Of a stretch of DNA of 64,000 bases, positions 24,186 to 63,840 are shown piece by piece. Below the pieces are notes generated by a model. That model was given only the letters and a program-made list of their open reading frames with translations, searched no databases and was not told the origin of the DNA. Source of the DNA: Siphonodentalium dalli. Lineage: Eukaryota; Mollusca; Scaphopoda; Gadilida; Siphonodentaliidae. Position 1 is the first letter of the stretch. Every line of letters begins with the position of its first letter. The position numbers were made by a program, and so were the translations under genes. The stretch is from contig CP136063.1 of assembly GCA_032622095.1 (NCBI GenBank), forward strand, positions 79,771,980 to 79,835,979, in the 5' to 3' direction.

Positions 24186-24189
24186 GGGC

Positions 24190-24275
24190 GGTTATCGCTT
24201 TCCACAATAACTCAAGGATATGTTAATCAATAGAGAGGTCATGTCATATCGTGGAAAGCGATAGCCACCCATTAT
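24190..24275. repeat. Central hairpin of the 5.5-kb palindrome
   Basis: GGCGGTTATCGCTTTCCAC and its near-exact inverse GTGGAAAGCGATAGCCACC flank ~37 bp of loop. This is the symmetry centre between the two minisatellite arms. Confidence 0.6.
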
Positions 24276-24284
24276 CACACAGTC

Positions 24285-38813: not shown

Positions 38814-39250
38814 CTTTTTCTCGGTTTTAAACTCAATATATCAGACATTAATGGGACAAACTGCAATTCTGTTGTCAATGACGCAACGAGCTGAAACAAG
38901 TTTGGACAAAAAGCGGCTTTTCCCCAAGAACGATAACCGAACATACAAGTCCAAAATGTCGAATCCGGAAACGGATATTTGGTGCGGTAAAAGACGGTAG
39001 CAAAAACACTGCTGTTCAGCCAAGCTCCACGAGGAGTTCAGTCCCCTACACAGGACTTGCCGCCGCACACGTAATGTGAAGAAATGTCGCATTTATTTAT
39101 GTAGGTTACAATTCATTCTGCATTATTCTGAGAAACTGAACTGTCCATATGCATTTGAAAATTGTCTAGATCAAGCCAGAATGAATTGTAACTGACAAAA
39201 CACTTCAATAAAAAATGTTAGATTTAATTAAGACATGAAGATAGATATAT
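38814..39250 (-). other. Upstream region of the CEP95-like gene
   Basis: No repeat family recognised. More GC-rich near 38880-39070 than its surroundings. No TATA box or certain promoter motif identified. Confidence 0.35.
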
Positions 39251-40702: not shown

Positions 40703-41250
40703 ATAAGCCCGACGTTGTCCGGGCTATTCAAAAACCAAATTTCAAGTCGATAGCTCTACCCAGCCCGACGTTGTCCGGGCTATTCAAAAACCAAATTTCA
40801 AGTCGATAGCTCTACCCGTTTCCGAGATCTGGTCTGCGCATGCGCGAAGCTGACGTCGCACGGGCTCGGCGACCCGATAAAATTCGTATCCGTGGCAAGA
40901 TACATTCACATACCAAATTTCAAATCGATAGCTCCACCCGTTTCCGAGATCTGGTCTGCGCATGCGCGAAGCTGGCGTCGCACGGGCTCGGTGACCCGAT
41001 AAAATTCGTATCCGGGGCAAGATACATTCACATACCAAATTTCAAGTCGATAGCTCCACCCGTTTCCGAGATCTGGTCTGCGCATGCGCGAAGCTGACGT
41101 CGCACGGGCTCTGCGACGCGATAAAATTCGTATCCGGGGCAAGATACATTCACATAGCAAATTTCAAGTCGATAGCTCCACCCGTTTCCGAGATCTCGTC
41201 TGCGCATGCGCGAAGCGGGCGCCGCACGGGCTCGCCATTACGACAACGTC
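40703..41250 (+). repeat. 122-bp tandem repeat array
   Basis: TCGATAGCTC starts recur at 40803, 40925, 41047 and 41169, a strict 122-bp period. Each unit has TTTCCGAGATCTGGTCTGCG, the palindrome TGCGCATGCGC and the ACCAAATTTCAAGTCG tail. At the left end a 56-bp subunit (AGCCCGACGTTGTCCGGGCT) is doubled. Two more units open the second 4.26-kb copy at 45301-45490. Confidence 0.75.
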
Positions 41251-42018
41251 CGCCGCCTGGTCAAACTACACACACGTACCAAGTTTCGTCCCGATCGGTC
41301 GAGAATCGTAGATTTGTATAAATGACAAACATACAGACAAACATGCAAACATACAGACAGAGGTCTTCAAAATATATATGAGATACATTGAAGACTTCTG
41401 CCTTAAGCAAGAAGAATCCATCGATAAAATCACACAGAAGAAATTTCAAAAGCAATAACAATATCTGTATCTGTATCCATGTTCTACCACCACGGCCGAG
41501 TAACTTTATAACCCTGTGGTGACTCCAGTCTTAGCGTTCTTTAACGTGCATTAACGTGCACACACCGAGGCGTGTACACGGGTCAGCCATTAATGTCCGC
41601 GCCCGATCGGACAGCGTACTGCACCACGACAACATACTTGGACTAGTGTTGTAATGGGGGGGGGGTCGGCATTTTGCATTCAGATCTTTATTCAGTTATC
41701 TCGAATGAGACTTTTCAGCCTGACAAACATTACATGGTATCTGACCGAGTTCTGATTTTTGTCAGAATATCCTGACCAGGTTGCGATCCCCGGTCCGCTA
41801 TAGCACGAGAGACCATGCAGTACGATACCCCTCGGCTACCGATTTCACCTAAACGATAAGCCTCTGACTGCATGGGACTCGCTGCAGAACACCTGAAGTT
41901 TGCCCAAGACAGACATCGAATATTACCGATTCAAACTCCTCAACTCCACAGTACAAGGGAAAGCACCAGAGATTCTGAAGGATGGAATGGTAACATCAGT
42001 CTTTAAGAAGGTGACTTT

Positions 42019-42815
42019 TAAATTCAATTATTAGTACTCATCTCGAGTAAATAACAAATTTCAAAAATCAATATCTAATAACTCTGAGCTTTGTTTGATG
42101 GGTTCCTTTGACTTTTAAATTCAATTATTAGTACTCATCTCGAGTAAATAACAAATTTCAAAAATCAATATCTAATAACTCTGAGCTTTGTTTGATGGGT
42201 TCCTTGACTCGAATCAAATATTTTTTACCCCCAAAGCCAAAGAAATAGTAATATAGGACCCTCTGATCGGATTGTTGTTGTTGGAATCTGTTGAGATGGG
42301 GACCCTCTGTTCGGATTGAGTACCTTCAAAGGTACTCAATCCGATAAAACTCCTCTCAATTACTATTTCAATGGCTTCGGGGGTCAAAAATATTTGATTC
42401 GAGTCGAGAGTCACCCATCAAAGCTCAGATTTGTTAGATATCGATTTTAGAAATCTATTATTTTTCATTATCGGGAATACTTTCTGGCCCAGATCTCAGT
42501 CAAAATTGCGTTATTATTACCAATTGATTTTAGAGTTATCCATCCTTGTCGGTTTGAATAGAGTTTTGGTGTACAAATCTCGAGCAGGAAACGAAATTGA
42601 CGGCAAGTATTAGTACTCATCTCGAGAACATAAGAATTTTCAAAAATCAATATCTAATAACTCTGAGCTTTGTTTGATGGGTTCCTCGACTCGAATCAAA
42701 TATTTTTTACCACCAAAGCCAAAGAAATAGTAATATAGGACCCTCTGATCGGATTGTTGTTGTTGGAATCTGTTGAGATGGGGACCCTCTGGTCGGATTG
42801 AGTACCTTTAAGGAG
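42019..42815. repeat. Family F4 composite foldback in U1 (also 46279-47075 in U2)
   Basis: Several F4 arms (CTCTGAGCTTTG, TTCCTCGACTCGAATCAAAT, ACTATTTC..TGGC) in both orientations, including a head-to-head joint GAGTACCTTCAAAGGTACTC. It ends GAGTACCTTTAA. A 105-bp block (TTTTAAATTCAATTATTAGT) is doubled at its start. Confidence 0.65.
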
Positions 42816-42891
42816 ATATCAGTTGTCACAAAATCAAGTGTAACACCAGTGAACAAATGTGAGTGATCCTAAATATACCTACAGAAGAGAA

Positions 42892-45076
42892 TAGCGAGTT
42901 TGCGATACCCGTCGGACGGGTACGGGTACCGGTAGATCCAGGTAGATCGGTGAAAATCGTCACGGTCATTTGCGTACTTTGCATGCAGCACATAAAGCGA
43001 TAGGGATTTGGAACGGGTAGATGTATCCCATTGACTGGTAGTCTTTCGCTAAAGTTTTCTCACTCAAAAGTACATTAGTTCTACGAAATAACTGTCAGCT
43101 ATGCATTAATCTATTTATTGCACGATTTCATTGCCAAATCTCATTGATACATTTGTCATTTAAGCCATGTTTTATGTTCAAAGTATCGAGGCGGCTTCTA
43201 ACACTAAGATAACTATGGAACGCCGATTTGTTTACTGACAACTGTCTTCACTCAAGTAATGACATGTTATGATTAAGAGAGTGGGTTGGCGGTGCTATAC
43301 GCAGTCTCGACACAGGGACGTAATTATAGGGGGTCTCCGCGTTGAGAAGGTGTGTCCATCTTCAAATTCCCAATTATACACCCCCTTAAACCACACCAAA
43401 CAGAGGTTTGTGTGTAATTCAAATTGTGCACGCCGTTGGGCTCTGATTTCCCCAACTGATCCTTCACTGTCCTGAATATTATTGTGGACTGTTCTAAATG
43501 GATCAGTAGTCTTGTTGCAGAAGTCCTGTGATGGGGGGGGGGGGGTCCACCTTGCCGACCATGCAGTACGAGAACAGTTTTGTAGATATGAACCTGGAAA
43601 TAGCAATATCATAACATCTAGTGGTCTAACACCAGGCAAATTCACGCCCTGGTTTGTTTTTCACAAATTAATGATCAGTATTGACGAGCCACTGAATGTG
43701 GTTAGACCAGGACATACCGGGTCGACCATGGTTCGGTCTGGTGTGAGAACGTTTTGAAATCTGAACATGAAAATTGATAAATTATTGACTTTCCTCAAGC
43801 TTTACATTTGTTGGATATTTCCAACCTGCTGTTGACCATATAACCCGAATGTTTTTCTACCAAAAGTAGGAATATTTGCAAATGTTGGTCTAAAACTATA
43901 AAAAAAAATCCCCACTAATACATTTTTGGAAAATCAAACTGAATGACAGAATAATTTCAACGTATGTTTTGGTGTGTTAGGTATATGCAATATCCAACTG
44001 TTGACAAAAGTTGGGGTGATACACCCCACCCTCTCGCCACGTCCCCTATCGACCCTTTGTGCATGGTCATAAGTACACCGTGAATGTGTTACACGATTGA
44101 ATACAACCGTTCAGTTATTGTACCTTATGTGGTGGTGACTGATTTCTCATTTTAATATAGATATTTGACTTTTGAACGGACATGGCGCATTTGAACCCCA
44201 AGACTGTTGTGTATTGTAGTGGCCGATAGTGACACCAAATACTGATATACATGCACCTCATACTCGGCACAATCTTACCGTCATCAGAGCGACTTTTAGC
44301 TGTTTTCTTTGTTTCGCACAGACGTGAAGCAAACGCTCTTTATTCGAACCATATAATGAATAGTGTACCATTAAACACCCTTTATATTTAACAAGTTTGA
44401 TTTTTCTACCTACATCCGGGTTTAGACCCAGACAAATATCCAAGTTCTTGGGATGAATATTCCCTTGCCCGACCCTTCGAAAGATTCCAACCCGTTACCA
44501 GTTATATGACTAAATATTCCCCAACTAATATAAGGGGCAATTTCGGTCTTATATCTGACTAAAAGTGCATGCATGTAGGACATTCTTGGACCCTGGGTCT
44601 AAACCAACACATTTTACACCGAATAATGGTTGGATTATTAAATTAGCGTAATTGTATATTTGTGCTATCATAACATATTTTCTCAGTCAGAAAATTCCAT
44701 CTGTTCTAGACGACACTCGAACGGTCTGGGAAATTACTTATGAAAGCTAATTATTGAAAATGTTACCAAAATGAGTCAAAGAAAGACGCCAACCCCTTCC
44801 ACTTTCGCCTCGTCCCTGGTTAATGCAATCCATTATCCACGAAGATGTCCATCATATAACCATAACAGCAAGTATAACGTCGGCCAAGAAAGCGAATGCG
44901 GATAACATTTTCTCTATATCATATCTATTGTGCTGCAATTGGCTCACCATACACTACCCGTCGATATGCTTAATTCTACCCGTAAAACAGTTTGCGATTT
45001 CAAAACGTGTACCGGTACGGGTAGCTACCAGTACCCGTACCGGTACCCGTACCCGTTTGAAATCGCAAACTCGCTA
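42892..45076. mobile_element. 2.18-kb TIR element, copy in U1
   Basis: TA-GCGAGTTTGCGATACCCGT at the left and ..AAATCGCAAACTCGC-TA at the right. Subterminal GGTACGGGTACCGGTA-type stacks lie at both ends. No transposase: the longest frames (91-140 codons) show nothing known. TA borders would fit a Tc1/mariner-like or related group. Confidence 0.62.
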
Positions 45077-45300
45077 TTATATATCCTTGGCTATTATCAT
45101 AACGATAACCACAATATTCAAATATTTGCATTCGTATGGAAAGTTTAGAAATCCAGTAAAACGAATTACATTGCAGTATATTTACATACTAAGTGTTGTC
45201 ATCACTAAATCCAGCATTCTGATTGGTCGGCGCCCACGTGGCTAGTTGCAGTTATTTCTCGGTGAATGCGCAACGGCTCAATAACACCAAGCTCATAACA

Positions 45301-48300
45301 AGTCGATAGCTACACCCGTTTCCGAGATCTGGTCTGCGCATGCGCGAAGCTGACGTCGCACGGGCTCTGCGACGCGATAAAATTCGTATCCGGGGCAAGA
45401 TACATTCACATAGCAAATTTCAAGTCGATAGCTCCACCCGTTTCCGAGATCTCGTCTGCGCATGCGCGAAGCGGGCGCCGCACGGGCTCGCCATTACGAC
45501 AACGTCCGCCGCCTGGTCAAACTACACACACGTACCAAGTTTCGTCCCGATCGGTCGAGAATCGTAGATTTGTATAAATGACAAACATACAGACAAACAT
45601 GCAAACATACAGACAGAGGTCTTCAAAATATATATGAGATACATTGAAGACTTCTGCCTTAAGCAAGAAGAATCCATCGATAAAATCACACAGAAGAAAT
45701 TTCAAAAGCAATAACAATATCTGTATCTGTATCCATGTTCTACCACCACGGCCGAGTAACTTTATAACCCTGTGGTGACTCCAGTCTTAGCGTTCTTTAA
45801 CGTGCATTAACGTGCACACACCGAGGCGTGTACACGGGTCAGCCATTAATGTCCGCGCCCGATCGGACAGCGTACTGCACCACGACAACATACTTGGACT
45901 AGTGTTGTAATGGGGGGGGGGGGGGTCGGCATTTTGCATTCAGATCTTTATTCAGTTATCTCGAATGAGACTTTTCAGCCTGACAAACATTACATGGTAT
46001 CTGACCGAGTTCTGATTTTTGTCAGAATATCCTGACCAGGTTGCGATCCCCGGTCCGCTATAGCACGAGAGACCATGCAGTACGATACCCCTCGGCTACC
46101 GATTTCACCTAAACGATAAGCCTCTGACTGCATGGGACTCGCTGCAGAACACCTGAAGTTTGCCCAAGACAGACATCGAATATTACCGATTCAAACTCCT
46201 CAACTCCACAGTACAAGGGAAAGCACCAGAGATTCTGAAGGATGGAATGGTAACATCAGTCTTTAAGAAGGTGACTTTTAAATTCAATTATTAGTACTCA
46301 TCTCGAGTAAATAACAAATTTCAAAAATCAATATCTAATAACTCTGAGCTTTGTTTGATGGGTTCCTTTGACTTTTAAATTCAATTATTAGTACTCATCT
46401 CGAGTAAATAACAAATTTCAAAAATCAATATCTAATAACTCTGAGCTTTGTTTGATGGGTTCCTTGACTCGAATCAAATATTTTTTACCCCCAAAGCCAA
46501 AGAAATAGTAATATAGGACCCTCTGATCGGATTGTTGTTGTTGGAATCTGTTGAGATGGGGACCCTCTGTTCGGATTGAGTACCTTCAAAGGTACTCAAT
46601 CCGATAAAACTCCTCTCAATTACTATTTCAATGGCTTCGGGGGTCAAAAATATTTGATTCGAGTCGAGAGTCACCCATCAAAGCTCAGATTTGTTAGATA
46701 TCGATTTTAGAAATCTATTATTTTTCATTATCGGGAATACTTTCTGGCCCAGATCTCAGTCAAAATTGCGTTATTATTACCAATTGATTTTAGAGTTATC
46801 CATCCTTGTCGGTTTGAATAGAGTTTTGGTGTACTAATCTCGAGCAGGAAACGAAATTGACGGCAAGTATTAGTACTCATCTCGAGAACATAAGAATTTT
46901 CAAAAATCAATATCTAATAACTCTGAGCTTTGTTTGATGGGTTCCTCGACTCGAATCAAATATTTTTTACCACCAAAGCCAAAGAAATAGTAATATAGGA
47001 CCCTCTGATCGGATTGTTGTTGTTGGAATCTGTTGAGATGGGGACCCTCTGGTCGGATTGAGTACCTTTAAGGAGATATCAGTTGTCACAAAATCAAGTG
47101 TAACACCAGTGAACAAATGTGAGTGATCCTAAATATACCTACAGAAGAGAATAGCGAGTTTGCGATACCCGTCGGACGGGTACGGGTACCGGTAGATCCA
47201 GGTAGATCGGTGAAAATCGTCACGGTCATTTGCGTACTTTGCATGCAGCACATAAAGCGATAGGGATTTGGAACGGGTAGATGTATCCCATTGACTGGTA
47301 GTCTTTCGCTAAAGTTTTCTCACTCAAAAGTACATTAGTTCTACGAAATAACAGTCAGCTATGCATTAATCTATTTATTGCACGATTTCATTGCCAAATC
47401 TCATTGATACATTTGTCATTTAAGCCATGTTTTATGTTCAAAGTATCGAGGCGGCTTCTAACACTAAGATAACTATGGAACGCCGATTTGTTTACTGACA
47501 ACTGTCTTCACTCAAGTAATGACATGTTATGATTAAGAGAGTGGGTTGGCGGTGCTATACGCAGTCTCGACACAGGGACGTAATTATAGGGGGTCTCCGC
47601 GTTGAGAAGGTGTGTCCATCTTCAAATTCCCAATTATACACCCCCTTAAACCACACCAAACAGAGGTTTGTGTGTAATTCAAATTGTGCACGCCGTTGGG
47701 CTCTGATTTCCCCAACTGATCCTTCACTGTCCTGAATATTATTGTGGACTGTTCTAAATGGATCAGTAGTCTTGTTGCAGAAGTCCTGTGATGGGGGGGG
47801 GGGTCCACCTTGCCGACCATGCAGTACGAGAACAGTTTTGTAGATATGAACCTGGAAATAGCAATATCATAACATCTAGTGGTCTAACACCAGGCAAATT
47901 CACGCCCTGGTTTGTTTTTCACAAATTAATGATCAGTATTGACGAGCCACTGAATGTGGTTAGACCAGGACATACCGGGTCGACCATGGTTCGGTCTGGT
48001 GTGAGAACGTTTTGAAATCTGAACATGAAAATTGATAAATTATTGACTTTCCTCAAGCTTTACATTTGTTGGATATTTCCAACCTGCTGTTGACCATATA
48101 ACCCGAATGTTTTTCTACCAAAAGTAGGAATATTTGCAAATGTTGGTCTAAAACTATAAAAAAAAATCCCCACTAATACATTTTTGGAAAATCAAACTGA
48201 ATGACAGAATAATTTCAACGTATGTTTTGGTGTGTTAGGTATATGCAATATCCAACTGTTGACAAAAGTTGGGGTGATACACCCCACCCTCTCGCCACGT

Positions 48301-49558
48301 CCCCTATCGACCCTTTGTGCATGGTCATAAGTACACCGTGAATGTGTTACACGATTGAATACAACCGTTCAGTTATTGTACCTTATGTGGTGGTGACTGA
48401 TTTCTCATTTTAATATAGATATTTGACTTTTGAACGGACATGGCGCATTTGAACCCCAAGACTGTTGTGTATTGTAGTGGCCGATAGTGACACCAAATAC
48501 TGATATACATGCACCTCATACTCGGCACAATCTTACCGTCATCAGAGCGACTTTTAGCTGTTTTCTTTGTTTCGCACAGACGTGAAGCAAACGCTCTTTA
48601 TTCGAACCATATAATGAATAGTGTACCATTAAACACCCTTTATATTTAACAAGTTTGATTTTTCTACCTACATCCGGGTTTAGACCCAGACAAATATCCA
48701 AGTTCTTGGGATGAATATTCCCTTGCCCGACCCTTCGAAAGATTCCAACCCGTTACCAGTTATATGACTAAATATTCCCCAACTAATATAAGGGGCAATT
48801 TCGGTCTTATATCTGACTAAAAGTGCATGCATGTAGGACATTCTTGGACCCTGGGTCTAAACCAACACATTTTACACCGAATAATGGTTGGATTATTAAA
48901 TTAGCGTAATTGTATATTTGTGCTATCATAACATATTTTCTCAGTCAGAAAATTCCATCTGTTCTAGACGACACTCGAACGGTCTGGGAAATTACTTATG
49001 AAAGCTAATTATTGAAAATGTTACCAAAATGAGTCAAAGAAAGACGCCAACCCCTTCCACTTTCGCCTCGTCCCTGGTTAATGCAATCCATTATCCACGA
49101 AGATGTCCATCATATAACCATAACAGCAAGTATAACGTCGGCCAAGAAAGCGAATGCGGATAACATTTTCTCTATATCATATCTATTGTGCTGCAATTGG
49201 CTCACCATACACTACCCGTCGATATGCTTAATTCTACCCGTAAAACAGTTTGCGATTTCAAAACGTGTACCGGTACGGGTAGCTACCAGTACCCGTACCG
49301 GTACCCGTACCCGTTTGAAATCGCAAACTCGCTATTATATATCCTTGGCTATTATCATAACGATAACCACAATATTCAAATATTTGCATTCGTATGGAAA
49401 GTTTAGAAATCCAGTAAAACGAATTACATTGCAGTATATTTACATACTAAGTGTTGTCATCACTAAATCCAGCATTCTGATTGGTCGGCGCCCACGTGGC
49501 TAGTTGCAGTTATTTCTCGGTGAATGCGCAACGGCTCAATAACACCAAGCTCATAACA
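45301..49558 (+). repeat. Tandem segmental duplication, unit U2
   Basis: Second copy of the 4.26-kb unit, abutting U1 directly. Its right part is at the same time the left part of the larger V1 unit. Confidence 0.85.
47152..49334. mobile_element. 2.18-kb TIR element, copy in U2/V1
   Basis: Same ends and content as 42892-45076. The equivalent point in V2 (around 56895) reads AGAAGAGATTATATATCC with no element. Confidence 0.65.
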
Positions 49559-49949
49559 ACATCGATACGTCATTGGGTTTGGAAAGACGAACGCGTAATG
49601 TTTTGGGCGCATTTGGACTCGCGCAGGATTGACTTAATACATCATCGGGTTTCATTATGAAGAGAAATTGTTCCTATTAACTTTTGCCAAGGGTGCTATT
49701 GGGTATTTTGGGCTGTTTTTGTCACGATACACTTTTCGATTTAAATACATTTACAAAAGTGGCTTTTTCGCTAAATGTATTTAAATATAAGGATTAACTG
49801 TCATGGGGACTATTTTTATGGAGATGTAACCGTGAGGTAAGTGGTCATAACTTGTATGTAAAACCCTTCGGGTTTTACACAAGTTATGTCCACTTACCTC
49901 ACGGTTACATCTCCATAAAACAGTCCACATGACAGTTAATCCTTATATG
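49438..49949 (+). repeat. Family F8 repeat with terminal hairpin
   Basis: As 18177-18690. The hairpin AAGGATTAACTGTCATG.. folds around AAAACCCTTCGGGTTTT. Confidence 0.72.
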
Positions 49950-50239
49950 GGGCTGTAACGATACACTGGGTTACGAAACGATACATGATCAACGATATGA
50001 TTCATACCACGATATACACTAAATTAGCGTTCCCTAATGAATATACCACCTGGATTATCAGAACCAAGATGTCTAAAACTGGAGACAGCGTTCATTTTAA
50101 ACAGAATGCAGTTTAATGGTTAAGTAGATTAGTCAAAACACATAAAATACATGTAAATTTGAGAGAACGTTGCAGGTTTTGCTCTTTTACACTTGCCCAT
50201 CTTCATAAAGTACTTGATTTCCTGTATAGCGATGCACAC

Positions 50240-53128
50240 GACACAATATAGTCCAGGATATATTGGTCGACCTCTGCACCCCCCCCCCCCCCCCCAGGAC
50301 TTAACTTCGCCCCACTAATATTCTTCCTTAAGGTCTCCTCTAATTTTTGTCACTTGTTAACAAGAAAAAAAGTGGCCACAGAGACTCCAGACAAGATGGC
50401 GTCCATCATGGCGGCCATTTTTTTTTAATGCACCAGGTCTCTTTGATCGCCATTATAGTAAAGATGATAGCAGATGCGGTCTTGTTTTCCGCTCGATTCG
50501 TTATGCTAATATACAACCCTTACAAATTAGCCAAAAATCCGACACCAGAATCCAATATGGCGGCCAAGATGGCCGCCGAAATGTGAAAATATGCTATTTT
50601 TCTGACATGTTGCCCCCTTTCGTTTGTCTCTGTGGGGAAATGTTAGAATTTTTGCGTCATGTTATACATTTATCATATAGAGGAGTAATTGGCGAACACA
50701 TGGGGACCATAATATGCATTCTTTGCGGGATATTTTTGTCCGATATCACGTTTTCCCAAATGCCGGTATCATAGGTCAAAGCCGAATCTCCGTTAATAAC
50801 GCGATGTTATGTTTCGAATCAATGAATGTTATTGCTATTATAACAACACCCATGCATATATATTTGCAGGAGATACTCGAGCTAGGATTCCTCTTATACC
50901 TGAGTTGAGAAATATTTACCCAAATCCAAGATGGCCACCAGAAATAAAAAATCGCCGAAAATCGCTGATTTTAACATCAGTGCGCATTATTGTCATGACA
51001 ACTCCACACCTGCTTACTATTGTAAGTTGTGAACACCTAGGCGAAGAACTTTCCTTGTACCATATCCAAATAAAAGTCCCCCAAATCCAAAATGGCGCCC
51101 ACAATGGCGGACAGATTTTGAAAAATCACCGAAATTCCCTCATATTCACATCATTGGGCATTATTGTCGAGACATCTCCATCCACGCGTACAGTTGAGTT
51201 GGAAACACTGAGGTGAAGTAATTACCTTACATCTCATGCAAGAAATGGTTTTCCAAATCGAAGATGGCGGCCAAAATTTGAAAACACGCCTACATTCCTT
51301 TACTTTCTTAGGATGGGCGTTATTGTTTCGCGATTTCTACCCACCATTACATGTTGATATGTATGAATTATTCATTAGGGTTTGGCAAGTGATACTCACA
51401 GTCAATATGGCGGCCAAACTGGCGGGCAGAAATTGAAAAGAAGCCGATATTATCACATACTAATTTCAACTTTTTGTCATAATATTGATTTGTATAAACG
51501 AAACGGTACATAACATAAGCCATCTATTAGTTCCAATGTAAGTCGTAGCCCTTTGGAAGGATGAAAACCCACAATCGCGATGTGGCATTTCAAAATCCAT
51601 TCTCCACTAAGGGCTCATACTGGCCGTAACCGTATATAGGTGCGCCGAATAGTCATATTATGACTTCCAAGAATCAAAACAACAGTACCTGAGCTTATTC
51701 TGAATTGCCACATTCAGCATTATCTAGACTCGTTTCCGTCTCTTCGTCAGATTAATCTATCTCACTTACAACAACAGTTCACTACTCTTCTTTGTAGGAG
51801 GGTGCCACTAATCGGAATGTTTCAAACAATACATATGCCGGTGTCCAGCTCACGTGTTTGTTTTGAAAGCTTGGAATTCTTAGCGAGCTTCATTCGTGGT
51901 ATAGCTTATGGTATAATTCAGATGCTACATATGGGGTAAATGCGTCATCTTGTGCGATACACTATAAAGGTATTCGGTCGACGCGTATACTAGCTTCCAG
52001 AAGGACCTATCTATCTGCGTATTGTCAGCTTTGGTGACCTAATGGGGATAACAACGTGTACAACTGGTGATCTTCCCAAACAGCCACTTCTCAATATATG
52101 GTTCTTCGATTTAGAAAACAATTTCTTGCATGAGATGTAATGTAATTACTTCACCTCAGTATTTCCAACTCAATTGTAAGCATGGGTGGAGTTGTCTCGA
52201 CAATAATGCCCAATGATGTGAATATGAGGGAATTTCGGTGATTTTTCAAAATCTGTCCGCCATTGTGGGCGCTATTTTGGATTTGGGGGACTTGTATTTG
52301 GATATGGTACAAGGAAAGTTCTTCGCCTAAGTGTTCACAACTTACAATAGTAAGCAGGTGTGGAGTTGTCATGACAATAATGCTCACTGATGTTAAAATC
52401 AGCGATTTTCGGAGATTTTTTATTTCTGGTGGCCATTTTGGCCGCCATCTTGGATTTGGGTAAATATTCCTCAACTCAGGTATAAGAAGAATCCTAGCTC
52501 GAGTATCTCCTGCAAATATATATGCATGGGTGTTGTTATAATAGCAATAACATTCATTGATTCGAAACATAACATCGCGTTATTAACGGAGATTCGGCTT
52601 TGACATAATTATGATACCGGCATTTGGGGAAAACGTGATATCGGACAAAAATATCCCGCAATGAATGCATATTATGGTTCCCACGTGTTCGCCAATGACT
52701 CCTCTATATGATAAATGTATAACATGACGCAAATATTCTAACATTTTCCCACAGAGACAAACGAAAGGTGCTAACATGTCAGGAAAATAGCATATTTTCA
52801 CATTTCGGCGGCCATCTTGGCCGCCATATTGGATTCTGGTGTCGGATTTTTGGCTAATTTGTAAGGGTTGTATATTAGCATAATGAATCGAGCGGAAAAC
52901 AAGACCGCATGTGCTATCATCTTTACTATAATGGCGATCAAAGAGACCTGGTGCATTTTTTTTAAATGGCCGCCATGCTGGACGCCATCTTGTCTGGAGT
53001 CTCTGCGGCCACTTTTTGTTCTTGTTAACAAGTGAAAAAAATTAGAGGAGACCTTAAGGAAGAAAATTAGTGGGGTAAAGTTAAGTCCTGGGGGGTGCAG
53101 AGGTCTACCAATATCTCCTGGACTAATA
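50240..53128. mobile_element. 2.9-kb foldback element with ~1-kb inverted arms
   Basis: Left arm 50240-51264 and right arm 52098-53128 are near-identical inverted copies. The outer ends carry ATAGTCCAGGATATATTGG and the C run; the inner ends carry CTCATGCAAGAAAT. The 0.83-kb centre is unique. Arms carry six or more ATGGCGGCC-type boxes in a degenerate tandem arrangement. No transposase. Frames of 130-190 codons in the arms, repeated on both sides, are by-products of the repeats. Confidence 0.7.
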
Positions 53129-53390
53129 CGATATACGCGTATCGTTTGAGAGTGTATCGCGATACATCAAATTCACATTTAAAGGCACGGGCGGCGTTCG
53201 TTGCAGAAATATTCATTTTTGTTCAAATCGCCATCAACAGAAGGAATATTAAAATATATATAATTTATGTAGTTTTGTCCATATGACAAACATATAATAA
53301 GCGCGTAAATAGTATATTGTCGCCAAGACGTACGATGGTGTACGTAAACAAGAGCCTGCTCGTGTTACAGAAGTTTTGCTTCTGTTTACA

Positions 53391-54240
53391 ATAACACAAC
53401 TCAATTCTTTTGGTTAATCACACACAAATGATATAAACGCTCTTTATTATTTCCATATCAGGAAAACAGTAACAAATAACGCTCTTTATGTTTACCATAT
53501 CCGGATTAAACAAAAGCCAGGTTCTGTAACTTTTTTGCTTTTGTTTACATAACAAAGGAAAGACACGTGACAATAACAAACTGTTTATGCCATATTTCTG
53601 ATTGGTATAAGAACAAGTTCTGTCTATATTATGGAATCCTATTAGGGCCACATGCTAATGGCGCTTTCGGCGCCGAAAGCGACAAAAGGTGCGCCATTAG
53701 TAACGCGCCGAAAGCGACAAAATATGCGCGGTTACGCGCACTTTTTGTCGCTTTCGGCGCACTTTTTGTCGCGCGCCGAAAGCGACAAAATGTGCGATAT
53801 TAGCGCATGTTTCGGCGCGTTACTAATGGCGCACTTTTTGTCGCTTTCGGCGCGCGCCGAAAGCGCCATTATGCATACTATTAGGTCCACTCCCTAATGG
53901 CGCGCGCCGGAAGCGACAAAAAGTGCGCCATTAGGGTATGTTTCGGCGCGCGCCGAAAGCGACAAAAAGTGCGCCGAAAGCGCCATTAGCAAGTGGCCCT
54001 AATAGGATTCCATACTATATTTTACTATTCTTTCTGTTTATGACGGTTTTTGAGGGAGGTGCATATTTTAACAGCATACCCACCGCCAACGCCGCCCGTA
54101 TCTTTAATTGTTAAAGCCCTGCATTGCAATGGAAGCTACGGTGGAATGCAGTTCAGCTGCAGAGGCATTGAAGTAGATTACATGACACAAAAGGCTTTCA
54201 ATTCAATTCAAATTACATATTTCAATTCAACTAATTTACA
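53391..54240 (+). repeat. 850-bp tandem duplication, first copy
   Basis: Both copies start ATAACACAACTCAATTCTTT and are preceded by TTTACA, so the joint shows 6-bp microhomology. V2 has only one copy of this stretch. Confidence 0.85.
53633..54011. repeat. GGCGCGCC / AAAGCGAC palindrome cluster, copy a
   Basis: Outer inverted ends GGAATCCTATTAGGGCCAC enclose a mosaic of short direct and inverted copies of CGCCGAAAGCGACAAAAAGT, GCGCCATTAG and GGCGCGCGCC. Very CpG-rich within AT-rich DNA. It can fold into many alternative hairpins. Confidence 0.75.
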
Positions 54241-55090
54241 ATAACACAACTCAATTCTTTTGGTTAATCACACACAAATGATATAAACGCTCTTTATTAT
54301 TTCCATATCAGGAAAACAGTAACAAATAACGCTCTTTATGTTTACCATATCCGGATTAAACAAAAGCCAGGTTCTGTAACTTTTTTGCTTTTGTTTACAT
54401 AACAAAGGAAAGACACGTGACAATAACAAACTGTTTATGCCATATTTCTGATTGGTATAAGAACAAGTTCTGTCTATATTATGGAATCCTATTAGGGCCA
54501 CTTGCTAATGGCGCTTTCGGCGCCGAAAGCGACAAAAAGTGCGCCATTAGTAACGCGCCAAAATATGCGCGGTTACGGCGCACTTTTTGTCGCGCGCCGA
54601 AAGCGACAAAATGTGCGATATTAGCGCATGTGTCGGCGCGCCGAAAGCGACAAAATGTGCGCCGTAACGGCGCACATTTTGTCGCTTTCGGCGCGTTACT
54701 AATGGCGCACTTTTTGTCGCTTTCGGCGCGCGCCGAAAGCGCCATTAGGCATACTATTAGGTCCACTCCCTAATGGCGCGCGCCGGAAGCGACAAAAAGT
54801 GCGCCATTAGGATATGTTTCGGCGCGCGCCGAAAGCGCCATTAGCAAGTGGCCCTAATAGGATTCCATACTATATTTTACTATTCTTTCTGTTTATGACG
54901 GTTTTTGAGGGAGGTGAATATTTTAACAGCATACCCACCGCCAACGCCGCCCGTATCTTTAATTGTTAAAGCCCTGCATTGCAATGGAAGCTACGGTGGA
55001 ATGCAGTTCAGCTGCAGAGGCATTGAAGTAGATTACATGACACAAAAGGCTTTCAATTCAATTCAAATTACATATTTCAATTCAACTAAA
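54241..55090 (+). repeat. 850-bp tandem duplication, second copy
   Basis: Near-identical to 53391-54240 outside the palindrome cluster. After its end the sequence continues into AAATTGAGATAATTATGG, the continuation shared with V2. Confidence 0.85.
54483..54866. repeat. GGCGCGCC / AAAGCGAC palindrome cluster, copy b
   Basis: Same outer ends as copy a, but inner modules are rearranged: it contains a CGGCGCACATTTTGTCGCTT module that copy a lacks and lacks others. Confidence 0.75.
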
Positions 55091-55557
55091 TTGAGATAAT
55101 TATGGATACACTTGAATGGAATTCCAGCATGATTTACACCGAATAGCCTTGTCCGGAAACGCTTCTTTCAATTAATATTTATTTTATTTAGATTTTTATG
55201 TATGAAATGTACAACATTGGGACAGTTTTACGGGCTATTTTTTAGAAGAGATCGGCCATGAAACTTCAGACTATCTCGCGGAAACGTTTGGAACGCAACG
55301 AGCGGGAGATATATATCCTGTTAGCACTCACCACCAAGGCAAAATGTCAGATATTTTGCTCTGTAACATCAGGAATAAACCACTTTATAGACAAAATAAT
55401 ATATCCAATCTTCAGTTTGTCAGTGTTTTATACACAGAAAACGTTTTTTTACAGTCTTGAAATCGGGTTTTATAAAAAAAATATCTTGCTGTGGTCCAGG
55501 AGAGATACTGCAGAAAAAATGGTCCAGAACTTAAAAATGCATTATCCGAATTAACGC

Positions 55558-55790
55558 TCCCAAATTACTATTTCTTTGGCTTCGTGGGTAAACAATATTT
55601 GATTTGAGTCGAGGAACCCACCCATCAAAGAGTGATCAGATATCGACTTTGGAAGTTTGTTATTTCTCTAGATGTGCAATTATTTGTGGCCCAGAAACAC
55701 GTCGTCAAACGGACAAAATTGCGGATCAAGATGGATAACTCTAAAATCAAGTGGTAATACGGCCAAATTTCGTGATACTCAATTGATAAT
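55558..55790 (+). repeat. Family F4 fragment
   Basis: CCCAAATTACTATTTCTTTG, GAGTCGAGGAACCC, GTGATCAGATATCGA and the TAACTCTAAAATCAAGTGG block, one arm only. Same fragment in V2 at 63130-63370. Confidence 0.6.
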
Positions 55791-56029
55791 ACGGCCATAT
55801 TTAGTTGTACAAAATGTTGACAAATAACACATATTGGGAAATTTGATACCATAGTAGACAGTGGTTAGCATTATTTTGTTGCAATTAATCACCATATTCG
55901 AACTTGACCCGTGTCTTCTCAAATGTGACCCATATAGCAAATATCAAGAAATTCTGTTGAATACTAAATTTATCTTCCAGACAGTGGATTGAAGCCCCCC
56001 CAATCTGGGAAGTAGTGGGGTGTGAGATA

Positions 56030-56194
56030 TTAACCTTTACATGACTGGAGCTTCCTGAAATTTTGCGCAAACTCTGTGCCAATGCATTCTCCTATATATG
56101 CGAGTCCTCCACAGGGAGCCTTGCATATATAAGAGAATGCAGTGGCCTAAAAATATTTACATTCATCCTGTAAGCCAGTGCATTCTTTTAATAT
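56030..56194 (+). repeat. Family F1 element truncated at the V1/V2 joint
   Basis: TTAACCTTTACATGACTGG, first hairpin, CCTGTAAGCCAGTGCATTCT, then a break into GTTTGATGGGTTCC. The complete version is at the end of V2 (63605-63840), so this truncation is the duplication breakpoint. Confidence 0.72.
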
Positions 56195-56998
56195 GTTTGA
56201 TGGGTTCCTTGACTCGAATCAAATATTTTTTACCCCCAAAACCAAAGAAATAGTAATATAGGACCCTCTGATCGGATTGTTGTTGTTGGAATCTGTTGAG
56301 ATGGGGACCCTCTGTTCGGATTGAGTACCTTCAAAGGTACTCAATCCGATAAAACTCCTCTCAATTACTATTTCAATGGCTTCGGGGGTCAAAAATATTT
56401 GATTCGAGTCGAGAGTCACCTATCAAAGCTCAGATTTGTTAGATATCGATTTTAGAAATCTATTATTTTTCATTATCGGGAATACTTTCTGGCCCAGATC
56501 TCAGTCAAAATTGCGTTATTATTACCAATTGATTTTAGAGTTATCCATCCTTGTCGGTTTGAATAGAGTTTTGGTGTACAAATCTCGAGCAGGAAACGAA
56601 ATTGACGGCAAGTATTAGTACTCATCTCGAGAACATAAGAATTTTCAAAAATCAATATCTAATAACTCTGAGCTTTGTTTGATGGGTTCCTCGACTCGAA
56701 TCAAATATTTTTTACCACCAAAGCCAAAGAAATAGTAATATAGGACCCTCTGATCGGACTGTTGTTGTTGGAATCTGTTGAGATGGGGACCCTCTGGTCG
56801 GATTGAGTACCTTTAAGGAGATATCAGTTGTCACAAAATCAAGTGTAACACCAGTGAACAAATGTGAGTGATCCTAAATATACCTACAGAAGAGATTATA
56901 TATCCTTGGCTATTATCATAACGATAACCACACTATTCAAATATTTGCATTCGTATGGAAAGTTTAGAAATCCAGTAAAACGAATTACATTGCAGTAT

Positions 56999-57511
56999 AT
57001 TTACATACTAAGTGTTGTCATCACTAAATCCAGCATTCTGATTGGTCGGCGCCCACGTGGCTAGTTGCAGTTATTTCTCGGTGAATGCGCAACGGCTCAA
57101 TAACACCAAGCCCATAACAACATCGATACGTCATTGGGTTTGGAAAGACGAACGCGTAATGTTTTGGGCGCATTTGGACTCGCGCAGGATTGACTTAATA
57201 CATCATCGGGTTTCATTATGAAGAGAAATTGTTCCTATTAACTTTTGCCAAGGGTGCTATTTGGGTATTTTGGGCTGTTTTTGTCACGATACACTTTTCG
57301 ATTTAAATACATTTACAAAAGTGGCTTTTTCGCTAAATGTATTTAAATATAAGGATTAACTGTCATGGGGACTATTTTTATGGAGATGTAACCGTGAGGT
57401 AAGTGGTCATAACTTGTATGTAAAACCCTTCGGGTTTTACACAAGTTATGTCCACTTACCTCACGGTTACATCTCCATAAAAACAGTCCACATGACAGTT
57501 AATCCTTATAT
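56999..57511 (+). repeat. Family F8 repeat with terminal hairpin
   Basis: Near-identical to 49438-49949. Confidence 0.72.
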
Positions 57512-57802
57512 AGGGCTGTAACGATACACTGGGTTACGAAACGATACATGATCAACGATGTGATTCATACCACGATACACTAAATTAGCGTTCCCTAATG
57601 AATATACCACCTGGATTATCAGAACCAAGATGTCTAAAACTGGAGACAGCGTTCATTTTAAACAGAATGCAGTTTAATGGTTAAGTAGATTAGTCAAAAC
57701 ACATAAAATACATGTAAATTTGAGAGAACGTTGCAGGTTTTGCTCTTTTACACTTGCCCATCTTCATAAAGTACTTGATTTCCTGTATAGCGATGCACAC
57801 GA

Positions 57803-60800
57803 CACAATATAGTCCAGGATATATTGGTCGACCTCTGCACCCCCCCCCCCCAGGACTTAACTTCACCCCACTAATATTCTTCCTTAAGGTCTCCTCTAAT
57901 TTTTGTCACTTGTTAACAAGAAAAAAAGTGGCCGCAGAGACTCCAGACAAGATGGCGTCCATCATGGCGGCCATTTTTTTAAATGCACCAGGTCTCTTTG
58001 ATCGCCATTATAGTAAAGATGATAGCACATGCGGTCTTGTTTTCCGCTCGATTCGTTATGCTAATATACAACCCTTACAAATTAGCCAAAAATCCGACAC
58101 CAGAATCCAATATGGCGGCCAAGATGGCCGCCGAAATGTGAAAATATGCTATTTTTCTGACATGTTGCCCCCTTTCGTTTGTCTCTGTGGGGAAATGTTA
58201 GAATTTTTGCGTCATGTTATACATTTATTATATAGAGGAGTAATTGGCGAACACATGGGGACCATAATATGCATTCATTGCGGGATATTTTTGTCCGATA
58301 TCACGTTTTCCCAAATGCCGGTATCATAGGTCAAAGCCGAATCTCCGAATGTTATTGCTATTATAACAACACCCATGCATATATATTTGCAGGAGATACT
58401 CGAGCTAGGATTCCTCTTATACCTGAGTTGAGGAATATTTACCCAAATCCAAGATGGCCACCACAAATAAAAAATCGCCGAAAATCGCTGATTTTAACAT
58501 CAGTGCGCATTATTGTCATGACAACTCCACACCTGCTTACTATTGTAAGTTGGGAACACCTAGGCGAAGAACTTTCCTTGTACCATATCCATATAAAAGT
58601 CCCCCAAATCCAAAATGGCGCCCACAATGGCGGACAGATTTTGAAAAATCACCGAAATTCCCGCATATTCACATCATTGGGCATTATTGTCGAGACATCT
58701 CCATCCACGCGTACAGTTGAGTTGGAAACACTGAGGTGAAGTAATTACCTTACATCTCATGCAAGAAATGGTTTTCCAAATCGAAGATGGCGACCGAAAT
58801 TTGAAAACACGCCTACATTCCTTTACTTTCTTAGGATGGGCGTTATTGTTTCGCGATTTCTACCCACCATTACATGTTGATATGTATGAATTATTCATTA
58901 GGGTTTGGCAAGTGATACTCACAGTCAATATGGCGGCCAAACTGGCGGGCAGAAATTGAAAAGAAGCCGATATTATCACATACTAATTTCAACTTTTTGT
59001 CATAATATTGATTTGTATAAACGAAACGGTACATAACATAAGCCATCTATTAGTTCCAATGTAAGTCGTAGCCCTTTGGAAGGTAGTCCCAGTCTTCTTG
59101 TACTAAAACCAGCTAAGATATTGGGATGGCGATTTGCTGTTTTTAGTCCCAGCCCGCTTGCATACCAATCCTATCACACGAGTTACGCCCACGATCTGTG
59201 GCGGGAATCTGTGGTGTATTTTACTCGATTTACCTAATGAATCAATACATGATGCTATATACATCGGAAAGAGAGACATATCATGGTCATAATGGTGTAT
59301 AATAATCTAACTTTCATGTTAAATTACGCATAGAATATTCCGGTTGATTGTCACCAACATCGCTGTTTTTTCTGTTTGTTTACTTAACTGAAAGCCGAAC
59401 TCAGGTTCCGAAGAACTTCGGCATTGTCCGGTGTTTGTTTTGGCCGAGACGAATTTCGATACAAACAAAATGGCGGCCCCCATGATATTCTAATGGTCAT
59501 TGTGTTTACACTGTTTTAAACTGTGAGATGGTTATAATTCCCGTAATTTATTTAATGTATTACATTTATATCTTCAATATGTATTTAATCTATGTAATAA
59601 TTTATTTATTGTCACGTATAATTACGATTACAATGGAGAATTCATCGTGCGTGGTTGATTGAAAATCTACGGAATATTTTCACCGGAAAATGCCGAACGC
59701 AGTTCGCAAGGTCAACTGAGTTCGCATACTTTAAAAAATATGTAAACACTGCGGCAAAAGTTTCTTTTCACATTAAATTACCGCTTTCAATTCACAACCG
59801 ATGTGGGTTTCAGATCAAATAGCATGTCTTCTGCGGAAACTATCCGTTTATTGTAGCAATTGTGATATTTTATTTCATATAATTGTGGTTTTATTTGAGC
59901 GGGTCACTAACGATTAACTCGTGTCAAAGGAGACCATGGGCCTGGAACTCGGACTAAAGACCGGCACCGCCATCCCAATATCTTAGCCGGTTTTAGTACG
60001 AGAAGACTTGGACTATTTGGAAGGATGAAAACCCACAATCGCGATGTGGCATTTCAAAATCCATTCTCCACTAAGGGCTCATACTGGCCGTAACCGTATA
60101 TAGGTGCGCCGAATAGTCATATTATGACTTCCAAGAATCAAAACAACAGTACCTGAGCTTATTCTGAATTGCCACATTCAGCATTATCTAGACTCGTTTC
60201 CGTCTCTTCGTCAGATTAATCTATCTCACTTACAACAACAGTTCACTACTCTTCTTTGTAGGAGGGTGCCACTAATCGGAATGTTTCAAACAATACATAT
60301 GCCGGTGTCCAGCTCACGTGTTTGTTTTGAAAGCTTGGAATTCTTAGCGAGCTTCATTCGTGGTATAGCTTATGGTATAATTCAGATGCTACATATGGGG
60401 TAAATGCGTCATCTTGTGCGATACACTATAAAGGTATTCGGTCGATGCGTATACTAGCTTCCAGAAGGACCTATCTATCTGCGTATTGTCAGCTTTGGTG
60501 ACCTAATGGGGATAACAACGTGTACAGCTGGTGATCTTCCCAAACAGCCACTTCTCAATATATGGTTCTTCGATTTGGAAAACAATTTCTTGCATGAGAT
60601 GTAATGTAATTACTTCACCTCAGTATTTCCAACTCAATTGTAAGCATGGGTGGAGTTGTCTCGACAATAATGCCAATGATGTGAATATGAGGGAATTTCG
60701 GTGATTTTTCAAAATCTGTCCGCCATTGTGGGCGCTATTTTGGATTTGGGGGACTTGTATTTGGATATGGTACAAGGAAAGTTCTTCGCCTAAGTGTTCA

Positions 60801-61590
60801 CAACTTACAATAGTAAGCAGGTGTGGAGTTGTCATGACAATAATGCTCACTGATGTTAAAATCAGCGATTTTCGGAGATTTTTTTTTTCTGGTGGCCATT
60901 TTGGCCGCCATCTTGGATTTGGGTAAATATTCCTCAACTCAGGTATAAGAGGAATCCTAGCTCGAGTATCTCCTGCAAATATATATGCATGGGTGTTGTT
61001 ATAATAGCAATAACATTCATTGATTCGAAACATAACATCGCGTTATTAACGGAGATTCAGCTTTGACATAATTATGATACCGGCATTTGGGAAAACGTGA
61101 TATCGGACAAAAATATCCCGCAATGAATGCATATTATGGTCCCCACGTGTTCGCCAATGACTCCTCTATATGATAAATGTATAACATGACGCAAAAATTC
61201 TAACATTTTCCCACAGAGACAAACGAAAGGTGGTAACATGTCAGGAAAATAGCATATTTTCACATTTCGGCGGCCATCTTGGCCGCCATATTGGATTCTG
61301 GTGTCGGATTTTTGGCTAATTTGTACGGGTTGTATATTAGCATAATGAATCGAGCGGAAAACAAGACCGCATGTGCTATCATCTTTACTATAATGGCGAT
61401 CAAAGAGACCTGGTGCATTTTTTTTAAATGGCCGCCATGCTGGACGCCATCTTGTCTGGAGTCTCTGCGGCCACTTTTTGTTCTTGTTAACAAGTGAAAA
61501 AAATTAGAGGAGACCTTAAGGAAGAAAATTAGTGGGGTAAAGTTAAGTCCTGGGGGGTGCAGAGGTCTACTAATATCTCCTGGACTAATA
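57803..61590. mobile_element. Foldback element with ~1-kb inverted arms, V2 copy
   Basis: As 50240-53128, with a 932-bp Mutator-like insertion in the centre. The left arm lacks the short GTTAATAACGCGATGTTATG-region segment found in the V1 left arm near 50790-50825. Confidence 0.7.
59075..60024. mobile_element. Mutator-like non-autonomous element with 9-bp target duplication
   Basis: Element 59084-60015 (932 bp). TIRs of 48 bp begin TAGTCC(C/A)AGTCTTCT, continue through the CTAAGATATTGGGATGGCG block and differ at about three positions. Exact 9-bp duplicates TTTGGAAGG lie at 59075-59083 and 60016-60024. The unoccupied target is at 51552-51560 in V1 (..CCC TTTGGAAGG ATG..). 9-bp duplication with long TIRs is typical of Mutator-like elements. 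No transposase frame. Confidence 0.9.
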
Positions 61591-62094
61591 CGATATACGC
61601 GTATCGTTTGAGAGTGTATCGCGATACATCAAATTCACATTTAAAGGCACGGGCGGCGTTCGTTGCAGAAATATTCATTTTTGTTCAAATCGCCATCAAC
61701 AGAAGGAATATTAAAATATATATAATTTATGTAGTTTTGTCCATATGACAAACATATAATAAGCGCGTAAATAGTATATTGTCGCCAAGACGTACGATGG
61801 TGTACGTAAACAAGAGCCTGCTCGTGTTACAGAAGTTTTGCTTCTGTTTACAATAACACAACTCAATTCTTTTGGTTAATCACACACAAATGCTATAAAC
61901 GCTCTTTATTATTTCCATATCAGGAAAACAGTAACAAATAACGCTCTTTATGTTTACCATATCCGGATTAAACAAAAGCCAGGTTCTGTAACTTTTTTGC
62001 TTTTGTTTACATAACAAAGGAAAGACACGTGACAATAACAAACTGCTTATGCCATATTTCTGATTGGTATAAGAACAAGTTCTGTCTATATTAT

Positions 62095-62444
62095 GGAATC
62101 CTATTAGGGCCACTTGCTAATGGCGCCGAAAGCGACAAAAAGTGCGCCATTAGTAACGCGCCGAAAGCGCCAAAATATGCGCGGTTACGGCGCACTTTTT
62201 GTCGCGCGCCGAAAGAGACAAAATGTGCGATATTAGCGCATGTTACGGCGCGTTACTAATGGCGCACTTTTTGTCGCTTTCGGCGCGCGCCGAAAGCGCC
62301 ATTAGGCATACTATTAGGTCCACTCCCTAATGGCGCGCGCCGGAAGCGACAAAAAGTGCGCCATTAGGGTATGTTTCGGCGCGCGCCGAAAGCGACAAAA
62401 AGTGCGCCGAAAGCGCCATTAGCAAGTGGCCCTAATAGGATTCC
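62095..62444. repeat. GGCGCGCC / AAAGCGAC palindrome cluster, copy c
   Basis: Single V2 copy, 350 bp, shorter than a (379) and b (384). Ends identical, inner modules again different. Confidence 0.75.
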
Positions 62445-63129
62445 ATACTATATTTTACTATTCTTTCTGTTTATGACGGTTTTTGAGGGAGGTGAATATT
62501 TTAACAGCATACCCACCGCCAACGCCGCCCGTATCTTTAATTGTTAAAGCCCTGCATTGCAATGGAAGCTACGGTGGAATGCAGTTCAGCTGCAGAGGCA
62601 TTGAAGTAGATTACATGACACAAAAGGCTTTCAATTCAATTCAAATTACATATTTCAATTCAACTAAATTGAGATAATTATGGATACACTTGAATGGAAT
62701 TCCAGCATGATTTACACCGAATAGCCTTGTCCGGAAACGCTTCTTTCAATTAATATTTATTTTATTTAGATTTTTATGTATGAAATGTACAACATTGGGA
62801 CAGTTTTACGGGCTATTTTTTAGAAGAGATCGGCCATGAAACTTCAGACTATCTCGCGGAAACGTTTGGAACGCAACGAGCGGGAGATATATATCCTGTT
62901 AGCACTCACCACCAAGGCAAAATGTCAGATATTTTGCTCTGTAACATCAGGAATAAACCACTTTATAGACAAAATAATATATCCAATCTTCAGTTTGTCA
63001 GTGTTTTATTCACAGAAAACGTTTTTTTACAGTCTTGAAATCGGGTTTTATAAAAAAAATATCTTGCTGTGGTCCAGAAGAGATACTGCAGAAAAAATGG
63101 TTCAGAACTTAAAAATGCATTATCCGAAT

Positions 63130-63370
63130 TAACGCTCCCAAATTACTATTTCTTTGGCTTCGTGGGTAAACAATATTTGATTTGAGTCGAGGAACCCACA
63201 CATCAAAGAGTGATCAGATATCGACTTTGGAAGTTTGTTATTTCTCTAGATGTGCAATTATTTGTGGCCCAGAAACACGTCGTCAAACGGACAAAATTGC
63301 GGATCAAGATGGATAACTCTAAAATCAAGTGGTAATACGGCCAAATTTCGTGATACTCAATTGATAATAC
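63130..63370 (+). repeat. Family F4 fragment, V2 copy
   Basis: Counterpart of 55558-55790. Confidence 0.6.
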
Positions 63371-63604
63371 GGCCATATTTAGTTGTACAAAATGTTGATA
63401 AATAACACATATTGGGAAATTTGATACCATAGTAGAGTGGTTAGCATTATTTTGTTGCAATTAATCACCATATTCGAACTTGACCCGTGTCTTCTCAAAT
63501 GTGACCCATATACCAAATATCAAGAAATTCTGTTGAATACTAAATTTATCTTCCAGACAGTGGATTGAAGCCCCCCAATCTGGGAAGTAGTGGGGTGTGA
63601 GATA

Positions 63605-63840
63605 TTAACCTTTACATGACTGGAGCTTCCTGAAATTTTGCGCAAACTCTGCGCCAATGCATTCTCCTATATATGCGAGTCCTCCACAGGGAGCCTTGCA
63701 TATATAAGAGAATGCAGTGGCCTAAAAATATTTACATTCATCCTGTAAGCCAGTGCATTCTCTTATGTGGGAGACTCGCATGTATAAGAGAATGCACTGG
63801 CACAGGATCTTTAATGCTGCACCAGTCACGAAATGGTTAA
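63605..63840 (+). mobile_element. Family F1 element, complete
   Basis: TTAACCTTTACATGACTGG to CAGTCACGAAATGGTTAA, 236 bp, two inner hairpins. Confidence 0.68.

Follow-up and report, generated by a model that had tools for sequence, protein, structure and literature searches.

Overlapping head-to-tail copies in a transposon-rich stretch of assembled animal-like DNA

Among the copy-number variants (CNVs) of Drosophila and human treated in the sections of PMC4056370 used here, microhomology and filler sequence are among the breakpoint classes. Tandem duplications account for 2 of the 50 polarised insertions in those sections, so the breakpoint classes rest mainly on other types of event. False duplication by assembly is described in the available part of PMC9516828. 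There it is mainly heterotype, the exception being an older hummingbird assembly in which the homotype share is larger. In older assemblies 7-24% of false duplications were on the same scaffold, and in three newer (VGP) assemblies same-scaffold false duplication came to 22.2 of 24.1, 4.8 of 5.8 and 3.4 of 5.6 Mbp; wrong gap filling sometimes joins the falsely duplicated copies.

The stretch described here (~23 kb) lies in a window of 64,000 bases, which is the whole of the DNA analysed. It is transposon-rich, animal-like DNA in which at least two overlapping head-to-tail copying events appear to have given a younger pair of 4.3 kb (U1 and U2) and an older pair of 7.6-9.7 kb (V1 and V2). Its junctions are blunt, have microhomology of a few bp or include a small number of extra bases, and its breakpoints are without long homology, as in the non-homologous CNVs (NHEJ, MMEJ, replication-based template switching) of the sections of PMC4056370 used. 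It differs from those CNVs in that several tandem events of very different sizes overlap in one 23-kb stretch, and from that population survey in being one assembled sequence. In the portion of PMC3744419 drawn on, reversed-ends transposition of Ac in maize likewise gives tandem direct duplications in TIR-transposon DNA; here, however, the U and V breakpoints lie off the ends of the delimited inverted-end elements, so this route is without support. Adjacent copies, allele-like divergence and insertion differences are shared with heterotype false duplication as it appears in the available part of PMC9516828, but here the copies follow one another without a gap and the join has no overlap. No full match for nested tandem duplication was found in the literature searched, which does not prove its absence from print.

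It is somewhat more probable than an even chance (about 0.57) that the repeat-rich DNA of this stretch was truly duplicated in tandem twice, by non-homologous joining.

Layout and divergence of the two pairs

There is no N in the window and thus no assembly gap between the copies. Self-BLAST of the window matched 41043-45308 to 45299-49567 with 99.74% identity and split the V pair into a left block of 705 bp and three more collinear blocks. The length and identity of these matches are far beyond chance expectation. The two overlapping tandem systems claimed in a preliminary description were thereby recovered. The U unit lengths given there were exact, with the breakpoint set before the shared CAA, its estimates for V (~9.7 and 7.6 kb) agree with the measured lengths (Table 1), and the left part of V1 is indeed the right part of U2 (46449-49556).

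Table 1 Features of the stretch (window coordinates)
Feature	Position	Strand	Method	Remarks
56-bp perfect tandem pair	40706..40817		TRF, lag scan, flank check	left edge of 122-bp array; blunt junction (0 bp shared)
122-bp array	40782..41234		TRF	3.7 copies; carries U left breakpoint
U1	41043..45298	+	self-BLAST, alignment	4,256 bp
U2	45299..49556	+	self-BLAST, alignment	4,258 bp
U1/U2 junction	45299..45301	+		CAA common to both breakpoints (3-bp microhomology)
97-bp perfect tandem pair	46272..46465		TRF	U1 copy at 42012-42205
V1	46449..56190	+	self-BLAST, alignment	9,742 bp
~2.18-kb element	47154..49332	+		13-bp inverted ends GCGAGTTTGCGAT; missing from V2
Inverted-arm element	50249..53125		self-BLAST	arms ~1 kb; arm divergence 4.2-4.3%
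855-bp tandem pair	53385..55092	+		inside V1; single in V2 at 61847-62670
V1/V2 junction filler	56191..56193	+		ATA; in-register match in neither parent flank
V2	56194..63765	+	self-BLAST, alignment	7,572 bp
932-bp element	59084..60015	+		inverted ends TAGTCC...GGACTA; missing from V1
Intact F1 hairpin	63749..63801			18-bp perfect arms, 17-base loop

The copies had been called nearly identical. This holds for U throughout, but the V blocks range from 94.3 to 99.3% in self-BLAST, in which small gaps are counted; by substitutions alone, large insertions aside, V identity is 99.26%. Between V1 and V2 there are 55 substitutions over 7,424 aligned sites (0.74%), a count in which the 855-bp region enters twice (both V1 copies against the single V2 copy); omitting the second comparison gives 50/6,630, or 0.75%. 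Four segments of V show even divergence (0.57, 0.78, 0.79 and 0.69%; chi-square p = 0.92), which points to a single event. The difference in length between V1 and V2 is mainly due to the 2.18-kb element and the extra 855-bp copy in V1 and the 932-bp element in V2.

U1 and U2 are separated by three substitutions, each a transversion, and by the lengths of two poly-G runs (two gap events with exact ends, three if the ends are taken slightly longer). Their divergence of 0.07% is about tenfold below that of V (Fisher p = 5e-8), so the youth ascribed to both events differs by degree.

As the preliminary description foresaw, an assembly artefact is the chief alternative, since 0.74% also fits two alleles. 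V1 and V2 would then be the two alleles of one locus, placed one after the other during assembly (heterotype false duplication), and U would be a genuine duplication on one allele or a further error of assembly. We consider this unlikely, while giving it more weight than any other rival. An even 0.74% accompanied by presence/absence insertions has the look of heterozygous alleles, and the end of V1 sits in a dispersed repeat (F1); contigs often terminate in repeats. The divergence is within ordinary heterozygosity (cf. 0.95% in zebra finch, from the available part of PMC9516828), which counts against a real V duplication, and the false duplications reported in that part, mainly heterotype, are often on one scaffold. 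Against the allelic explanation, the window is free of N, although this does not clear V because wrong gap filling sometimes joins copies (PMC9516828, same part). The V junction has a 3-bp filler and no overlap, which suggests that there was nothing by which two alleles could be joined, and V2 would have to start arbitrarily in the middle of a 97-bp repeat.

For U only, the copies might be under-collapsed, error-bearing reads of one sequence (homotype false duplication). So few differences over 4.26 kb could be read errors. However, polarity can be assigned to two of the three substitutions. The U1 base is shared by V2 and an outgroup copy at 42575 and by the remaining array copies at 41056. 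Both look like real mutations of U2, as errors in U2 also would, and the U1/U2 junction shows a clean microhomology of 3 bp. We think a homotype origin improbable.

Breakpoints and the joining of the copies

All copies are direct and head-to-tail with abrupt junctions, as produced by tandem duplication through non-homologous joining, and the breakpoints are without long homology, with CAA at the U junction and the 3-bp filler at that of V. When breakpoint neighbourhoods were compared with 300 random pairs from the window, similarity was at chance level, with an equal or higher score in a fraction of 0.23 of these pairs for U, 0.67 for V and 0.33 for the 855-bp pair.

One U breakpoint is in the 122-bp array, at 41043, and one V breakpoint cuts F1, within its hairpin; both placements had been proposed beforehand, the second at ~56190. 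These positions would suit unequal crossover between repeats (the 122-bp array, F1 or the 97-bp repeat). The partner breakpoints, however, fall outside the repeat concerned: the U breakpoints have 3 bp in common and those of V share nothing in register. Their neighbourhoods are alike only at chance level, and the junctions as they now stand make such an origin very improbable. In neither pair do the two breakpoints fall in copies of a single homologous repeat, the arrangement expected of NAHR, and for a crossover within the 122-bp array the partner breakpoint falls outside the array. That paired breakpoints are non-homologous argues against this crossover and fits end joining or template switching.

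The assembled copies, their order by divergence, their presence/absence differences and the junction sequences are direct observations. From them we infer the joining mechanism, and the existence of the junctions in the organism rather than in the assembly alone. If the duplications are genuine, the route would be end joining or microhomology-mediated template switching. The V unit, with the 97-bp repeat at its left end and the F1 hairpin at its right, would have been duplicated first, after which the V copies would have changed separately: the 932-bp element would have entered V2, the 2.18-kb element would have been gained by V1 or lost from V2, and an 855-bp piece would have been doubled in V1. 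Much later, duplication of a 4.26-kb piece across the left edge of V1 would have given U. The stretch would then hold an ordered series at one place, from the inverted-arm element (4.2%) through V (0.74%) to U (0.07%), and large tandem copies would begin without homology, ahead of any unequal crossover. If it is an artefact, an allele pair mimics a segmental duplication, and repeat and copy-number counts are inflated.

Structural differences between the V copies

The 2.18-kb element, of which the U1 copy is at 42894-45074, has a probable TA target duplication. The V2 site is 3 bp shorter than that duplication predicts and may therefore be an excision scar. A perfect 9-bp target duplication, TTTGGAAGG, flanks the 932-bp element in V2; V1 has this sequence once. 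Terminal inverted repeats and a 9-bp target duplication are marks of the Mutator-like family, and the element is a candidate non-autonomous member of it. The stretch 13851-14591 has similar ends, but a 9-bp target duplication is not evident there and it adds no strength to the family assignment. An insertion with its target duplication implies separate histories for V1 and V2, which alleles would show likewise.

The three 855-bp copies contain a palindromic GC-rich block, with indels of 9, 20, 21 and 55 bp among them. Their junction in V1 has 0-2 shared bases, depending on the placement of one mismatch.

Small arrays, hairpins and element content

Head-to-tail copies of five sizes lie in the stretch: 56 bp, 97 bp, 855 bp, 4.3 kb and 7.6-9.7 kb. 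A lag scan of the window outside the stretch, covering ungapped tandem pairs with periods of 45 to 1,499 bp at ≥93%, gave none (pairs with indels, <300 bp, being outside its scope). It is conceivable, if doubtful, that 40.7-63.8 kb is a duplication-prone site with overlapping copies of five sizes made by non-homologous joining, a complex satellite arising from a transposon cluster; most likely the events are ordinary repair-driven duplication. The stretch may be the array in active growth that had been suggested. It shows two large events besides some small ones, no large unit reaches three full copies, and only the 705-bp piece does so in self-BLAST (U1, U2 and V2). Self-BLAST also returned an old tandem self-match (69.7%) at 19237-19738.

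The stretch had been described as made almost wholly of mobile elements. Inverted-end elements, the inverted-arm element and dispersed repeats bear this out for part of the DNA, but no Pfam domain was found in 13 tested ORFs (of 24 of ≥80 aa in 45299-60020), so the recognisable elements look non-autonomous. Rfam gave no match at gathering scores, and no tRNA genes were found.

The counterpart of the inverted-arm element in V2 is at 57810-61587, the 932-bp element included. Gene conversion between the inverted arms was discarded, as none of the 52 variable ungapped sites sets both arms of one V copy apart from both arms of the other.

The F1 core is present at nine positions left of 16 kb. The V right breakpoint coincides with the arm/loop border of the F1 hairpin. 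As a common cause of the breaks hairpins make a weak case: with breakpoints entered to within 7 bases, only this one of the four outer breakpoints is at a hairpin arm end, and 1.5, 2.1 and 3.8% of positions are at such ends for minimum stem lengths of 14, 12 and 10 bp, respectively.

The V left breakpoint, 46449, is within the second copy of the 97-bp pair. TRF gives this pair 2.1 copies. The exact run is 97, however, which makes the junction blunt by strict count; on reading, the word TGACT is seen at either end, out of register by one base.

Copies, divergence and order of events

The window has 38% G+C and zero N in 64,000 bases. The preliminary description had claimed two overlapping direct duplications, and comparison of the window with itself recovered both where they had been placed: U, the younger head-to-tail pair, and V, the older one. 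U1 and U2 differ by 3 substitutions and in the lengths of two poly-G runs; a run of 25 C is also seen at 7857-7881. V1 and V2 are collinear in four segments, with 4/701, 17/2,179, 21/2,655 and 13/1,889 substitutions, giving 55/7,424 (0.74%) overall, a figure into which an 855-bp region enters twice. As divergence does not differ among the four segments (chi-square 0.48, p = 0.92), V looks like a single event. BLAST identity of some V blocks is lower (94.3-98.1%), indels being the main source. The divergence of U (3/4,255) is about ten times below that of V (Fisher p = 5e-8).

An element whose inverted arms diverge by 4.2-4.3% was copied along with the rest of V; between V1 and V2 its left arms pair at 1.1% and its right arms at 0.9%, and no site supporting arm-to-arm conversion was found in these copies. 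Ordered by divergence, the inverted-arm element would come first, then V, then U.

Features located in the window
Feature	Position	Strand	Source	Remark
U1	41043-45298		self-comparison	abuts U2
U2	45299-49556		self-comparison	abuts U1
V1	46449-56190		self-comparison	
V2	56194-63765		self-comparison	
Perfect tandem pair, 56 bp	40706-40817			same stretch as U/V
Perfect tandem pair, 97 bp	42012-42205			same stretch as U/V; copied in U2
Fibronectin type III match	6293-6664		Pfam scan	
884-aa ORF	36186-38840	minus	Pfam	DUF5745, E 1.6e-19; uninterrupted over 2.65 kb

How V1 and V2 differ in structure

One element of 2.18 kb, bounded by 13-bp inverted ends, is present in U1 and U2/V1 and missing from V2. 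Its flanks suggest a TA target duplication, with the V2 site 3 bp shorter than predicted; either a small deletion or a scar left by excision could account for the shortfall. V2 alone carries a 932-bp element with inverted ends; since the 9-bp word TTTGGAAGG lies on both sides of it and once at the V1 site, it is a clean insertion postdating the separation of V1 and V2. A 741-bp stretch at 13851-14591 has inverted TAGTCCAAGT-type ends resembling those of the 932-bp element, with no evident 9-bp target duplication.

The 855-bp piece is a tandem pair in V1 and a single copy in V2. The second V1 copy is intermediate, as aligned sites differ at 6 positions between first and second, 5 between second and V2 and 10 between first and V2; the doubling of the piece and the V event are similar in age and may have come in either order. 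GC-rich palindromic blocks at 53655-54015, 54510-54860 and 62110-62430, built from words such as CGAAAGCGACAAAA and AATGGCGC, vary by indels of 9, 20, 21 and 55 bp across three young copies and are a fast-changing structure.

Junctions and the possibility of misassembly

Breakpoints had been claimed in the 122-bp array and in F1, a dispersed hairpin element, and the left breakpoint of U indeed lies inside the array and the right breakpoint of V inside an F1 hairpin. Their partners sit in other sequences, so repeat-to-repeat crossover was ruled out as the maker of these junctions. The parent breakpoints of U have only CAA in common, and the V junction has three added bases (ATA) and zero shared sequence in register. 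Local similarity of paired breakpoints was about that of random pairs from the window, the share of 300 such pairs scoring at least as high being 0.23 for U, 0.67 for V and 0.33 for the 855-bp pair. In a survey of Drosophila and human copy-number variants, the main breakpoint classes are joins that are blunt, that use short microhomology or that gain or lose a few bases; tandem duplications made up only 2/50 polarised insertions (PMC4056370).

The locus is of an ordinary kind, either repeat-rich DNA duplicated in tandem step by step or a look-alike assembly duplicate. Judged from sequence, real duplication by non-homologous joining is probable (about 0.57). That V1 and V2 are instead two alleles set in series, an allelic false duplication, seems rather unlikely: their divergence falls in the ordinary heterozygosity range, they differ by insertions and one breakpoint is within a dispersed repeat, but there is no gap between the copies, the join is without overlap and the junction carries filler. 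The V figures agree with duplication and with serial alleles alike. A survey of false duplications names half depth, inter-copy gaps and single-copy k-mers as their marks; false copies are mostly gap-separated, sometimes linked via wrong gap filling, and the larger part of the false duplication in its newer assemblies had both copies on one scaffold (PMC9516828). Whether U is a homotype error is a separate question, and we think this improbable; 2/3 U substitutions are polarised as U2 changes, which both real mutations and errors in U2 would produce.

Neighbouring repeats and sequence content

An ungapped scan for tandem pairs (period 25-1,499, at least 93%, low-complexity units excluded) recorded nothing beyond the U/V stretch except, at 32.1 kb, a 22-bp minisatellite picked up at period 44; the 122-bp array, like the two perfect pairs, is in that stretch. 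The scan is blind to indel-bearing pairs such as the 855-bp pair, found via BLAST rows above 300 bp, as was an old tandem self-match (69.7%) at 19237-19738. The concentration of tandem pairs in the U/V stretch relative to the rest of this one window is suggestive, and a bolder reading might be that the site repeatedly produces tandem copies of many sizes.

Rfam and tRNA scans gave zero matches, and Pfam none for the 13 ORFs scanned out of 24 that are 80 aa or longer and overlap 45299-60020, the two longest of which are readings of the V2 inverted-arm element. A region made up almost entirely of mobile elements, as proposed, is structurally plausible (inverted ends, target duplication, dispersed relatives, the last at 10015-10473 and 18171-18683 by self-comparison), short of a base-by-base demonstration. 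The fibronectin type III and DUF5745 matches are compatible with an animal genome; the ORF with the DUF5745 match is perhaps a CEP95 relative.

The ORF at 39738-40211, without a Pfam match, looks like a C-terminal portion of a non-LTR reverse transcriptase. It sits just upstream of the 122-bp array (within 40706-41234), possibly the 3' repeat belonging to this putative element. A large inverted repeat at 22233-27761, with 610-bp outer arms (96.9%), inner arm stretches (81.6% and 64.6%) and a core with strong C skew and a 42-bp repeat, is probably a large TIR element.
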